The notes under the pieces are model-generated. The model worked only from the letters and a program-made list of their open reading frames with translations, ran no database searches and was not told the DNA's origin. Positions 44,437 through 50,706 of a DNA stretch of 64,000 nt are shown here, in pieces. Where the stretch lies: assembly GCA_025462865.1 (NCBI GenBank), contig JAOAPI010000056.1:1-64000 (forward strand). The letters run 5' to 3'. A program made the translations under genes and the position numbers. Numbering within the stretch: position 1 is the first letter of the stretch; the number at the start of each line of letters is the position of its first letter. This DNA is from Candidatus Sulfotelmatobacter sp. (GTDB lineage: Bacteria > Acidobacteriota > Terriglobia > Terriglobales > Acidobacteriaceae).

Positions 44437-44958
44437 CTACTTCTTCCTCCTCACCTTAGCCCCCATCCGCAACAATTTCCTTACCGTGCCTGTCGGCAGC
44501 CGCTTCATTTGATCATGCAACTCCGTCACCGCCTCAAAAAATCCCGCCATCGCCGCCAGACGCTCCCGCGTAAACTCCGCACCTGTTTCTTGCGGATCCA
44601 ACTCCTCCAAACTCCGTCGCAGCATTTCGCGCGTCGGATCAATCTCCCTCCGCTTCCTCTGCTCAATCACCAGTCGGAACATCTCCCACACATCTTTCAT
44701 CGACTCGTAATGTTCCCGCCGATCCCCCAGTACATGCACTGCGCGCACAATGCCCCAGCCCTCGAGCTCCCGGATCGATGTGCTGACATTCGAGCGGGCG
44801 ACGCTCAATGTCTCTGCGATCTGCTCCGCTGGCAGCGCCCGCGGCGACAAATACAGCAGCGCATGGATTTGCGCGACTGTGCGGTTGATGCCCCATCGCG
44901 TGCCCATTTCGCCCCAGTGCAGGATGTATTGTTTCTGCACCACCGTGAGATTCGCCAT
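44437..44958 (-). CDS. GbsR/MarR-family transcriptional regulator
   Basis: MGTRWGINRTVAQIHALLYLSPRALPAEQIAETLSVARSNVSTSIRELEGWGIVRAVHVLGDRREHYES. Confidence 0.9.
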   Translation of the reverse strand: MANLTVVQKQYILHWGEMGTRWGINRTVAQIHALLYLSPRALPAEQIAETLSVARSNVSTSIRELEGWGIVRAVHVLGDRREHYESMKDVWEMFRLVIEQRKRREIDPTREMLRRSLEELDPQETGAEFTRERLAAMAGFFEAVTELHDQMKRLPTGTVRKLLRMGAKVRRKK

Positions 44959-46975: not shown

Positions 46976-47755
46976 ATGGAACCCGCACTCATAGCCAAAC
47001 TGCTCCAGCCATTTCTGCGGGACGCCGGGGAACAACAACCTTTTGCGCACGACGCCCTTTACCATCATATATCGACGTACATCGATATACTCCTTCATTG
47101 GAACGCCCGCATCAACCTCACCGCCGTACGCGATCCGGAAGAAATAGTCACCCGACACTTCGGCGAATCCCTTTTTGCCGCCCGCCATCTATTTCCCGGC
47201 GCGGCCTCTGCGGAGAAGACCAGTCCCGCAGGCTCAAAGTGTCAACCGTTGATGTCCAATGCCCGCGTAGCTGACCTGGGTTCTGGCGCTGGATTCCCCG
47301 GGATTCCGATTAAACTCTGGGCTCCTCACATAGCCCTTACGCTGGTCGAATCCAACCACAAGAAGGCCACCTTCCTTCGCGAGGTCACCCGCACCCTTAC
47401 ATTGACGGACGTCGATATAACACACGCCCGTGCTGAAACTCTTCCACTCTCCAGTTTCGACGTGGTAACCCTGCGCGCTGTGGAACGTCTTGTCGACGTC
47501 CTGGCCACAGCCGTCGCGGTTCTAGTTCCCGCTGGCCGCTTGGCGCTACTGATCTCTTCTTCTCAACTCAACGCGGTACACCGGACGATTCCTTCCTTCG
47601 AGTTTGATGACCCGATTCCGGTTCCCGCGTCCGAATCACGTGTTTTACTGATCGGCAGGAAGCCCTTCAGGAACTCGGGACTAACGGATGTTCCCATGGG
47701 AACATCCGAGCAGTCGGCAGCGAAGCGTTTGCCGTCTGGACCATATGAAACCTAG
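46976..47755 (+). CDS. rsmG: 16S rRNA (guanine(527)-N7)-methyltransferase
   Basis: ILLHWNARINLTAVRDPEEIVTRHFGESL; VADLGSGAGFPGIPIKLWAPHIALTLVESNHKKATFLREV. Confidence 0.95.
   Translation: MEPALIAKLLQPFLRDAGEQQPFAHDALYHHISTYIDILLHWNARINLTAVRDPEEIVTRHFGESLFAARHLFPGAASAEKTSPAGSKCQPLMSNARVADLGSGAGFPGIPIKLWAPHIALTLVESNHKKATFLREVTRTLTLTDVDITHARAETLPLSSFDVVTLRAVERLVDVLATAVAVLVPAGRLALLISSSQLNAVHRTIPSFEFDDPIPVPASESRVLLIGRKPFRNSGLTDVPMGTSEQSAAKRLPSGPYET
47068..47089. repeat. 22-bp palindromic site, copy 1: TATATCGACGTACATCGATATA (inside rsmG)
   Basis: 8-bp perfect arms; only one mismatched pair across all 22 bp. Confidence 0.8.
47398..47419. repeat. 22-bp site, copy 2: TACATTGACGGACGTCGATATA (inside rsmG)
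   Basis: Aligned by eye to copies 1, 3, 4 and 5. Confidence 0.7.
47685..47708. promoter_or_regulatory. parS-like palindrome 1: CGGATGTTCCCATGGGAACATCCG
   Basis: Perfect 24-bp palindrome at the 3' end of the rsmG ORF. Confidence 0.75.
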
Positions 47756-47922
47756 GAACCAAGTCAGTAAGAGTGGTAAAACAATCATGTTCCACTGGTT
47801 TTATGCCAAGTTCCCGTACATAAATACTACACTTGTGGGACATTTATTCACTCCAAGCTTAACTCTTGCCTTGCCGAGTTTAGCGGCCAGGTTTCAGTTT
47901 AGCGCCGCAAGTCCGATCCCTC

Positions 47923-47938
47923 TGTTCCCGCCGGAACA
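47923..47938. promoter_or_regulatory. Imperfect parS-like site: TGTTCCCGCCGGAACA
   Basis: Near-palindrome sharing TGTTCC...GGAACA. Confidence 0.4.
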
Positions 47939-48018
47939 TTAAGCCTCCGCTATTTGCCTCCGTTCTCGGCGAGGCCCCTCCAGCGGCCGCGCGGATACGT
48001 AGCGTGCTGGCTTCTGAG

Positions 48019-48034
48019 TGTTCCCATGGGAACA
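48019..48034. promoter_or_regulatory. parS-like palindrome 2: TGTTCCCATGGGAACA
   Basis: Perfect 16-bp palindrome identical to the core of palindrome 1. Confidence 0.75.
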
Positions 48035-48091
48035 TCGTCGGCCACCTCGGCATGTCCTCTTCTCCTTGGCCGTCCAGTAATCATGGTTAAC

Positions 48092-48107
48092 TGTTCCCGT
48101 GGGAACA
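48092..48107. promoter_or_regulatory. parS-like palindrome 3: TGTTCCCGTGGGAACA
   Basis: Same arms, central dinucleotide GT instead of AT. Confidence 0.7.
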
Positions 48108-48213
48108 GCGGAACCTGTTTTGCACACAAATTCGACTTGTGCACAGCATTCGACGTTGCAATCGAAATACGAGTCGCATTATGCTGCGAACAGCTCTGGC
48201 TCCTGGACAATCT

Positions 48214-49017
48214 ATGGGACGCGTCATCGCTGTTGCCAATCAGAAGGGCGGCGTGGGCAAGACTACGACCGCCATTAACCTGGCCGCGTCCTTCGCGGCG
48301 GCCGAAGTGAACACCCTCCTCATTGACTGCGATCCGCAGTCGAATGCCTCGAGCGGGCTCGGACTCGTTAAAGATCCGGAGCGTGTTTCGACCTATCATC
48401 TGTTGCTCAGCGAGGCTTCGAGTGAACAAGCGCTTGCGACCACCGAACTTGAGCAACTCTGGATCATTCCTGCCCATAAGAATCTGATCGGGGCGAACAT
48501 AGAACTTGTCGAGGCAGAGCGGCGCGAATATCGCCTGCGGGACGCCATCGCGTCTCTGCGTGATCGCTTCACCTACATCGTTCTCGATTGCCCCCCCGCG
48601 CTCGATCTGCTCACCCTGAATGCGCTGGTGGCGGCTGATTCGGTTTTGATTCCCATGCAGGCGGAATACTTTGCGCTGGAAGGCATCAGCGAGCTGCTGG
48701 ATACCGTCGAGCGCATCCGGGTGGCGCTGAATCCAGGCTTGGAAATTGAGGGCGTGGTCCTGACCATGTTGGACGAACGCACCAATCTGGCGCAACAAGT
48801 GATGGCCGAACTCAAGAAATATTTCGGCGAAAAGCTGTGCGCCGCAAGCATCCCCCGGAACATACGGTTGGCGGAAGCGCCCAGCCACGGGAAGGCAGCA
48901 TTGGTGTACGACCCGAGGTCGAAGGGGGCGGAGAGTTATATACGCCTGGCCAAGGAATTGATGGGCAGGCATCTGGCTGCGGCGGCGAGTACTCCCGAAT
49001 CCGCGATCAGCGCCTGA
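48214..49017 (+). CDS. parA: ParA-family chromosome-partitioning ATPase
   Basis: MGRVIAVANQKGGVGKTTTAINLAASFAAAEVNTLLIDCDPQSNASSGLG. Confidence 0.96.
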   Translation: MGRVIAVANQKGGVGKTTTAINLAASFAAAEVNTLLIDCDPQSNASSGLGLVKDPERVSTYHLLLSEASSEQALATTELEQLWIIPAHKNLIGANIELVEAERREYRLRDAIASLRDRFTYIVLDCPPALDLLTLNALVAADSVLIPMQAEYFALEGISELLDTVERIRVALNPGLEIEGVVLTMLDERTNLAQQVMAELKKYFGEKLCAASIPRNIRLAEAPSHGKAALVYDPRSKGAESYIRLAKELMGRHLAAAASTPESAISA

Positions 49018-49018
49018 G

Positions 49019-49088
49019 TATATTGACGTAGATCGATCTATTGTTACATTGACATTTATCGATATATGCATCGACGTCCGTCGATATA
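49019..49088. repeat. Cluster of three 22-bp palindromic sites (copies 3-5) in the parA-parB gap
   Basis: 49019-49040 TATATTGACGTAGATCGATCTA; 49045-49066 TACATTGACATTTATCGATATA; 49067-49088 TGCATCGACGTCCGTCGATATA. The last two are directly abutting. Confidence 0.75.
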
Positions 49089-49141
49089 CGATTGCGCCGA
49101 CGTCTTCGATACGAGGCAAGAAGTTTCACCGAGGAAATCTC

Positions 49142-50194
49142 ATGACTGTAGCGGCAGAGAAAAAAGACGAGAGAGTCGAGAAGCGGCGAGCTTTGGGCCG
49201 GGGGCTTGAGTCGCTGTTGCCGGGCCCGCGAGCTGTGACGCCTGTACCTGTACCGAGTGGCACTGACGCAGAGGAAACGAAGGTCCCTCGCTTCGCTCGC
49301 GATGACAACCGTGCTCAGGACAAGAGTGTTGCGGTCGACGTGATTGCGATTCAGCCGCAGGCGACCCCAGGGAACCTGGTGGTGAGCCTGGACATTGGAG
49401 TGATCGACAAGAATCCTTATCAAACACGGTATGTCTTTGATGAGGAAGCGCTGGCCGAACTGGCGGACTCGATCAAGGAGCACGGAGTAGTACAGCCGGT
49501 GGTGGTCCGTCCGGCGCCGGAGGAAGGGCGCTACATCCTCGTCTTAGGCGAGCGGAGGTTGCGCGCCTCGAAGTTAGCGGGGAAGGATGTGATCCCGGCG
49601 CTGGTGCGGAAGGTTTCGCCGCAGCAGGCGGCGGAGATGACGGTGCTCGAGAATGTCGTGCGCGAGGATTTGAACCCTCTCGAACAGGCGGAGGCGTTCC
49701 GCGTGCTGAGCAAAGAGTTTCAGCTGACGCAGGCGCAGATTGCGGAGCGCGTTGGTGTATCGCGGGAGACGGTATCGAATTACATGCGGTTGCTACGTCT
49801 TCCCAAAAAAGTGATGGGCTACATGCTGGAGGACCGGCTTAGTTTCAGCGACGCGCGCCTGCTGCTGGCGTTGGAAAATGAGAATCTGATCGAAGAAGTC
49901 GCCGAAGAAGTGGTAACGCAGCATTTGAAGTGGGACGAAATCGAAGATCGGGTGGCGCGGCGGAACGGATCTTTGCCTCCGTTGCCGGCACAGACAGCCG
50001 AGCAGAAAAATGCCACAGGGCGAGGTGCGCGGTGGGTCGATCCGAATGTGCGGGCCGCGCAAACCGAGATGGAACGCACCCTCGGCATGCGCGTGAGAAT
50101 TAAAGATCGGAACGGCAAGGGCAGAATTGTGATCGAGTACGCCACGGTCGACGACTATGAGCGCGTCGTGGAGATGTTGCGGGCGAAAGCATAG
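49142..50194 (+). CDS. parB: ParB/Spo0J-family chromosome-partitioning protein
   Basis: RRALGRGLESLLPG; NPYQTRYVFDEEALAELADSIKEHGVVQPVVVRP; LGERRLRASKLAG; ENVVREDLNPLEQAEAF; HTH LTQAQIAERVGVSRETVSNYMRLLRLP. Confidence 0.95.
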   Translation: MTVAAEKKDERVEKRRALGRGLESLLPGPRAVTPVPVPSGTDAEETKVPRFARDDNRAQDKSVAVDVIAIQPQATPGNLVVSLDIGVIDKNPYQTRYVFDEEALAELADSIKEHGVVQPVVVRPAPEEGRYILVLGERRLRASKLAGKDVIPALVRKVSPQQAAEMTVLENVVREDLNPLEQAEAFRVLSKEFQLTQAQIAERVGVSRETVSNYMRLLRLPKKVMGYMLEDRLSFSDARLLLALENENLIEEVAEEVVTQHLKWDEIEDRVARRNGSLPPLPAQTAEQKNATGRGARWVDPNVRAAQTEMERTLGMRVRIKDRNGKGRIVIEYATVDDYERVVEMLRAKA

Positions 50195-50349
50195 TCAGGG
50201 AACTGCGTGTGAAATATGAGGGCGGCCTGCTGGCCGCCTTTTCACTTGGCTGGAAGGCGACAAATCATGGCGGTTTCGCCATACACTTTCGACACGCCGA
50301 AGCATCCCCAGAATCAGACTCGTCAACAAATCGAGATAGTAATAGTGGA

Positions 50350-50706
50350 ATGGGTTTCCGGAAATTGCGGATTCTCGCCGAAGGTGGGAGATCCTTTTTG
50401 ACTGAAGTGGGAAAGGCGTTGAGTTCCGTGGCGGCGCAGCTCATGAATGGTGAGCAAGTGCTGCTGGAAGATCAGAAGATCCGGGTGAAGCGGGTAGGAA
50501 GCGGGCGGCTGCGGATGGTTCAGTTCAAGTTGAACGGACGCTTGTTTGAGGCGATCGAGCAGAACCGCGCCAAGCCGAGCCGGTGGGGAAAGCTAGCGCT
50601 CGAGAAACATCAGGTGGTGCAGTTTCGCGACGTTGAGAGCCATAAGTATGTCGCCGTCGCGGTTGATGGGAAAGTGCAGGAGTACGGGAAGAAGTCCGAG
50701 AGCTAG
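50350..50706 (+). CDS. Hypothetical protein downstream of parB
   Basis: MGFRKLRILAEGGRSFLTEVGKALSSVAAQLMNGEQVLLEDQKIRVKRVGSGRLRMVQFKLNGRLFEAIEQN; ORF may extend to 50209. Confidence 0.55.
   Translation: MGFRKLRILAEGGRSFLTEVGKALSSVAAQLMNGEQVLLEDQKIRVKRVGSGRLRMVQFKLNGRLFEAIEQNRAKPSRWGKLALEKHQVVQFRDVESHKYVAVAVDGKVQEYGKKSES

Follow-up and report, generated by a model that had tools for sequence, protein, structure and literature searches.

ArsR/SmtB proteins are transcriptional repressors. The autorepressors among them (ArsR, CadC, SmtB, CzrA and M. tuberculosis Rv2034) are small winged-helix proteins of the HTH_5 type, with an inverted-repeat operator just upstream of their own gene. Rv2034 binds an 8-4-8 inverted repeat and represses itself, and a repeat with a 4-bp spacer is a known ArsR geometry (PMC3338718). 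In E. coli, the transcription modulators SeqA, Fis and IHF are bound at oriC (PMC8488378).

Here we describe a family of 22-bp palindromes at the rsmG-parA-parB locus of a Candidatus Sulfotelmatobacter genome, within the 64,000-nucleotide stretch of DNA that was analysed (the window). The palindromes are probably operators of a single dimeric ArsR/SmtB repressor, which would repress its own gene and act on the transcription of rsmG, parA and parB. Like the autorepressors above, the regulator is a small winged-helix HTH_5 protein with a predicted operator, a 4-bp-spaced inverted repeat, just upstream of its gene, and some of its copies have the CxC-type motif in common with them. It differs from them in that resistance genes are not its predicted main targets. 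These lie instead within rsmG and at the stop codon of parA, at the probable origin. In the window's lineage the regulator also has a reduced set of metal-site cysteines. A gene neighbourhood like that of ars operons (arsR, arsM, arsI/cadI) is found in six relatives, whereas in the window's lineage ars genes do not stand beside ArsR. With parS centromeres, the sites share the nature of palindromes in the rsmG-parA-parB region. In contrast to the parS of this locus (TGTTCC-N4-GGAACA, 16 bp, in the rsmG-parA gap), they are unrelated in sequence and lie outside the parS cluster. SeqA, Fis and IHF are comparable as transcription-factor-type proteins with origin sites, but the regulator belongs to another family, its predicted sites flank the parS-parA region on both sides, and a DnaA-box oriC was not detected here. 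In the literature searched, there was no paper tying ArsR to parB, chromosome segregation or an origin site.

A dedicated family of 22-bp sites

The site family has the consensus TAYATYGAY-N4-RTCRATRTA, a 22-bp palindrome of two 9-bp half-sites around a 4-bp spacer. Within 2 kb, the window contains five such sites, two of them in the coding sequence of rsmG and three in the 124-bp gap between the parA stop (49017) and the parB ATG (49142) (Table 1). The symmetric form of the motif, TAYATYGAYNNNNRTCGATATA, has 10 matches with up to three mismatches over both strands of the window, equivalent to these five sites, where shuffled sequences predict 0.08. Genome-wide counts come from pattern searches only, and in such a search of the 6.08 Mb genome the five were the only sites with at most one mismatch, all of them at rsmG-parA-parB. 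A scoring matrix was also built from 92 par-locus sites of relatives, and true sites score about 17-38 on this matrix. In 210 kb of shuffled sequence of the same loci a score above 10 occurred once, and in 380 kb of real background it did not occur.

Table 1. Coordinates of features at the par locus and of the regulator gene
Feature	Position	Strand	Remarks
rsmG (gidB), 16S rRNA methyltransferase	46976..47755	+	Holds sites 1 and 2; Pfam GidB, E=6.4e-38
Predicted operator site 1, in rsmG	47068..47089	+	TATATCGACGTACATCGATATA, score 36.7; near-perfect palindrome; position and codon frame (ISTYIDI) shared by site-bearing relatives
Predicted operator site 2, in rsmG	47398..47419	+	TACATTGACGGACGTCGATATA, score 33.1; codon frame (LTLTDxxI/V) preserved in relatives
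parS variant	47689..47704	+	TGTTCCCATGGGAACA
Degenerate parS	47923..47938	+	TGTTCCCGCCGGAACA
parS variant, second copy	48019..48034	+	TGTTCCCATGGGAACA
parS variant	48092..48107	+	TGTTCCCGTGGGAACA
parA	48214..49017	+	Pfam AAA_31, E=6.8e-59
Predicted operator site 3, one base past parA stop	49019..49040	+	TATATTGACGTAGATCGATCTA, score 31.5; parA-stop anchoring seen in relatives
Predicted operator site 4, parA-parB gap	49045..49066	+	TACATTGACATTTATCGATATA, score 32.4
Predicted operator site 5, third gap copy	49067..49088	+	TGCATCGACGTCCGTCGATATA, score 25.6; mostly missing from relatives
parB	49142..50194	+	Pfam ParB_N, HTH_ParB, ParB_C
ArsR/SmtB-family regulator, 103 aa	G000:C31, about 147683-147988	+	Found by searching with a related ArsR protein

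The three gap copies had been reported in a first-pass annotation of the sequence, and they lie exactly where it placed them. It overlooked the two equally strong copies in rsmG. The degenerate fourth copy that it suspected at 49091-49113 has to be given up, because the best matrix score there is below -25. Its suggestion that the locus has two separate site families is borne out, since the TGTTCCC palindromes are a local variant of parS. The 22-bp sites themselves are not parS, a 16-bp TGTTnCnCGTGnAACA-like palindrome, as they differ from it in both sequence and length. Lack of conservation together with equal frequency in random DNA had been named as grounds against the array; the sites turned out to be conserved in relatives and free of background.

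Conservation and layout in relatives

Those relatives that have names in public records are Acidobacteriaceae and Candidatus Sulfotelmatobacter MAGs. Many of the genomes are MAGs, and the absence of a site or gene may therefore reflect assembly loss. Exact matches were present in 39 of the 249 genomes of the order sample, every one of them within the window's family. Outside the order they were present in three genomes only (G403, G449 and G502), with one site each. Half of the family lacks the sites, including genomes with an identical rsmG-parA-parB order.

Four strong sites are usual in site-bearing relatives, one pair in rsmG and another at the stop codon of parA; among the genomes read, the third gap copy is peculiar to the window genome. 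In 24 of 31 genomes, the first gap site begins between -3 and +2 relative to the parA stop, and the TAG stop codon of parA often doubles as the first three bases of this site. The two gap sites are mostly spaced by 22-24 or 16 bp. The distance from the gap sites to parB is variable, ranging from 17 to 650 nt in relatives and amounting in L047 to about 3.7 kb. The right-hand sites are found 3' of parB instead in genera g50 and g21, as well as in G001, G030, G061 and G074. With such anchoring to the parA stop and such variable distances to the parB start, the earlier proposal of a simple operator of the parB promoter looks weak. A promoter-like match at 49023-49050 was considered in this connection and rejected, since it depends on the 26-bp spacing of this particular genome and the count of such matches is within the shuffled range.

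Several individual loci deviate from the usual layout. In L089, L153, L286, L287 and L056 (genus g28 and kin), the gap sites with 16-bp spacing overlap, share a common AATATT and form a compound element of about 38 bp. In L047 (270-4000), parA and parB are about 3.8 kb apart and both sites remained at the parA end. A GGTCCTTCGGC...GCCTCAGGATGACA-type repeat is inserted in many parA-parB gaps downstream of the sites (L039, L041, L050-L053). L147 (G006:C25:1-6000) has, besides the par-locus copy, a second rsmG-like frame at the contig end with a perfect 22-bp site at 311.

The parS core (47689-48107) has drifted in the close relatives L041, L042, L050 and L052-L055, where TGTTCC-N4-GGAACA is found with centres of the TGCAGG, GACCGG and CCATGG types. 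In other genera the parS at the same place is fixed as TGTTCCACGTGGAACA, and in L056 it is TGTTTCACGTGAAACA. TGTTCCACGTGGAACA serves as parS in Bdellovibrio (PMC10547168). Most close relatives also have a TTTTGCACA element (48117-48125) about 25 bp past the last parS and right before parA, which is a candidate for a promoter part or a DnaA-box variant. Several relatives share the C-terminal 100 aa of a 165-aa frame 3' of parB (50209-50706, plus strand), which has no Pfam match. A MarR-family-like HTH gene is located near rsmG (44440-44958, minus strand; Pfam MarR_2). This GbsR/MarR-like ORF was considered as a binder of the sites and discarded, as conservation near the locus was not seen in G045, G069, G028 or G032.

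Relation to the replication origin

The minimum of the cumulative GC skew is at 48616, within parA, and the replication origin of the window genome is therefore likely to be at or near parA. The minimum is also within parA in the site-bearing genomes G069 and G028. In the regions sampled from G045, which has sites, and from G032, which is site-less, it is not at parA. Clusters of DnaA boxes (TTATCCACA-like) were not detected in five origin regions.

Repeated sites at the skew minimum, with no DnaA-box cluster nearby, could in principle be iterons of a replication initiator. This is very improbable. Iterons are several direct repeats beside an initiator gene, and the sites are palindromes, usually in a 2+2 arrangement with 1.5-2 kb in between. 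Moreover, the genome has dnaA, about 15.7 kb from parB (start to start), half of the family is site-less, in some cases despite the same gene order, and the sites can be assigned to an ArsR protein. The first-pass annotation had read the gap copies as an iteron-like array for a regulator or initiator. What survives of this description is a dedicated, non-parS family that fits a dimeric regulator, while the terms iteron array and initiator do not suit the 2+2 layout and the likely binder, an ArsR/SmtB repressor.

Selection on DNA within rsmG

The sites in rsmG are found in a constant reading frame and encode ISTYIDI and LTLTDxx(I/V). Isoleucine is specified by ATA in 59 of 101 codons within the rsmG sites, a set that is itself selected by the motif, compared to 43 of 386 codons outside. 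At the homologous isoleucine column of rsmG, ATA is the codon of 18 of 20 ArsR-carrying genomes and of one of six genomes without ArsR; this one is G037, which has sites. The fixed frame and the rare codons mean that selection acts on the DNA. Site-less genomes mostly have the usual YLDLL-type RsmG sequence at this position. In G004 and G026 (L203 and L239), which have neither sites nor ArsR, rsmG has kept the ISTYID peptide with drifted codons, which looks like the remnant of a lost site.

The palindromes are transcribed on the sense strand, and selection could thus be imagined to act on hairpins in the rsmG and parA mRNAs. This can hardly be the case. Pairable combinations are at chance frequency for five of six position pairs, the sixth exceeds it only slightly (0.88 versus 0.81 expected), and C-A mismatches are common. 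The half-sites vary independently, as is expected for a DNA palindrome and not for an RNA stem.

An ArsR/SmtB protein as the likely reader of the sites

In G022 and G025, an ArsR/SmtB gene stands downstream of exact sites away from the par locus. The ArsR protein was searched across 80 family genomes, with a line for orthology at E 1e-15 that was chosen once a gap from about 1e-21 to 1e-12 had become apparent. In the window genome, the search matched its counterpart at G000:C31:147704-147988. The 103-aa protein of the window genome is a member of the ArsR/SmtB family according to Pfam (HTH_5, 1.1e-12; 48 bits, cut-off 22), NCBIfam (HTH_metalloreg, 75 bits, cut-off 55) and fold. Its AlphaFold2 model has a pLDDT of 82, and the best PDB match is 6j05, an As(III)-responsive ArsR.

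The best off-locus match of the window genome, CATATTGACAAGCGTCGATTTA (C31:147640-147661, score 21.2), is located at -43..-22 from the ATG of this gene. The matrix was derived from par-locus sites only, and ArsR promoters were thus outside its training set. It nevertheless scored above 10 near the start, usually at about -40, in 16 of the 25 orthologous ArsR genes for which a frame was found, while six orthologous ArsR promoters have no recognisable site. Upstream of paralogous ArsR genes in the site-less genomes G538, G539 and G541, scores were at most 8.1. Two other kinds of off-locus match were set aside as chance or coding coincidences, namely a NuoI-type match (YNIDYNRCIF) in several genomes and a match on C69 of G000, which is inside a long ORF.

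The presence of ArsR and the presence of sites go together. Among the 62 family genomes with rsmG, parA and parB, 24 have both, 35 have neither, two have only ArsR and one has only sites (Fisher p 8e-14, a value that is too favourable, given the non-independence of relatives). After the addition of siblings, the 92 genomes comprise 41 with both, 44 with neither, four with only ArsR and three with only sites, so that 85 of 92 agree. The genomes that have ArsR and lack par-locus sites at the cut-off are G029, G032 (a single-contig genome of 5,650,368 bp), G023 and G173. Those with sites and no ArsR are G037 (53% complete), G540 and G541 (single remnant). Both are missing from G217, inside the window's genus, from G256, inside g28, and from the close relatives G538 and G539, beside G000 and G006, and in each case siblings have both. 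G050 and G220 also lack both, and G140, G166 and G207 have both. It appears that ArsR and the sites were lost in parallel within several genera. A quick tree from RsmG and ParA, built without the site columns, gives 14 changes for ArsR and 13 for the sites. For eight independent pairs across well-supported branches, four to six are concordant and none is discordant; with a median p of 0.06, this phylogeny-corrected test is weak.

In view of the site upstream of ArsR, its recurrence in relatives and the agreement across genomes, the sites are most likely ArsR operators. FNR/CRP boxes have the form TTGAT-N4-ATCAA, and the core TTGAY-N4-RTCAA in the 22-bp frame has the same register. Another protein, for example of the CRP/FNR superfamily, might therefore read the sites, and the link to ArsR would then be secondary. 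This is improbable, since the par-locus motif recurs before orthologous ArsR genes in many genomes and tracks the presence of ArsR, and since no conserved HTH gene was seen beside rsmG-parA-parB in the four origin regions compared.

The As(III)-sensor CxC motif (GxCxCD) is not present in the ArsR of the window genome, which has GLCAGD with one cysteine. CACD is retained at the sensor helix by ArsR of G023, G025, G051, G059, G074 and others. Most copies from the window's part of the tree have CASD or CAGD, beside a slipin-like gene and other genes. Neighbours in this lineage, as judged by eye, are slipin-like, membrane protein and sensor kinase genes. In G001, G023, G025, G060, G074 and G166, the motif is found upstream of ArsR, and an ArsI/CadI-like gene, an ArsM-like gene or both follow it; the NCBIfam matches of these genes were obtained with partial sequences and are below the curated cut-offs. 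The ArsR copies of these six genomes have CACD at the sensor helix where it could be seen, and in G025, G060 and G074 the ars neighbours occur together with sites in rsmG. The window's lineage has lost both the arsenic neighbours (arsI/cadI, arsM) and the CxC motif. We infer from this distribution that the regulator may have shifted from arsenic control to the origin locus.

Possible effects at the par locus

If ArsR binds the sites, it would repress its own gene through the weaker operator copy just upstream of the start. Its strongest and nearly sole other targets would be the rsmG sites and those beside the stop of parA, which bracket the parS cluster, parA and the skew minimum, the probable replication origin. 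A dimer on each site within transcribed DNA would act as a roadblock or repressor of the co-directional transcription of rsmG, parA and parB. Reduced read-through into parB could thereby set the levels of ParA and ParB, and a ligand or cell state would release the dimer. The balance of ParA and ParB matters in Bdellovibrio (PMC10547168).

What the bound protein would do at the par locus is the least certain part of this explanation. Given ArsR binding, a roadblock or repression is quite possible, and we adopt it tentatively. It is the most ordinary reading, because all sites are in transcribed DNA of the rsmG-parA-parB strand, with no conserved promoter there, and none was found beneath the gap sites. 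Against it counts that in some genera the second group of sites follows parB, where it cannot affect read-through from parA to parB.

Alternatively, dimers of the same ArsR at the flanks could have an architectural role, without a direct role in transcription. They would mark, bridge or insulate the origin or centromere, for example by limiting the sliding of ParB or by shaping the origin. Such a role would account for sites that bracket parS and the skew minimum, for two sites inside coding sequence, for a parA-parB gap without a conserved promoter, and for anchoring to the 3' end of parA or parB and not to any start. In several genera the right-hand group is shifted past parB and still brackets the partition genes. 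The bracketing and the movable right-hand sites are explained about equally well by an architectural role and by a roadblock. The architectural role is nevertheless rather unlikely. ArsR/SmtB proteins are known as transcriptional repressors (Rv2034, PMC3338718), no description of bridging by ArsR/SmtB was found in the literature searched, and the sampled region of G045 has sites, yet its skew minimum is not at parA.

A further alternative leaves the par genes unaffected. The par-locus sites could be a titration sink that ties the level of free ArsR, and hence its own expression, to the copy number of the origin. In the window genome, the par-locus sites do outscore the auto-operator (25.6-36.7 vs 21.2). 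We regard a sink as doubtful, since it would need no fixed placement at the parA stop or in rsmG codons, and no other regulated ArsR target is known in the window's lineage.

Implications

The auto-operator combined with co-occurrence provides a general route to naming the reader of an orphan site family. At this locus, a conserved protein-coding gene also contains a probable regulatory site, under a constraint that is strong enough to fix rare codons and to shift the protein sequence.

With some reserve, it can be suggested that in this acidobacterial family a repressor of the arsenic-sensor type was recruited as a dedicated component of the origin and centromere, where it would shape or time replication or segregation instead of controlling resistance genes. 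Its operators would lie within rsmG, whose codons and amino acids are bent to fit them, and at the stop codon of parA or parB, enclosing parS and the origin. If this is true, the principal chromosomal targets of a family of metal- and arsenic-sensing repressors would be found at the replication origin and partition locus, across roughly 30 genera of a single family of Acidobacteria. A testable link from an environmental signal, perhaps redox, thiol or arsenic, to chromosome segregation would then be available.
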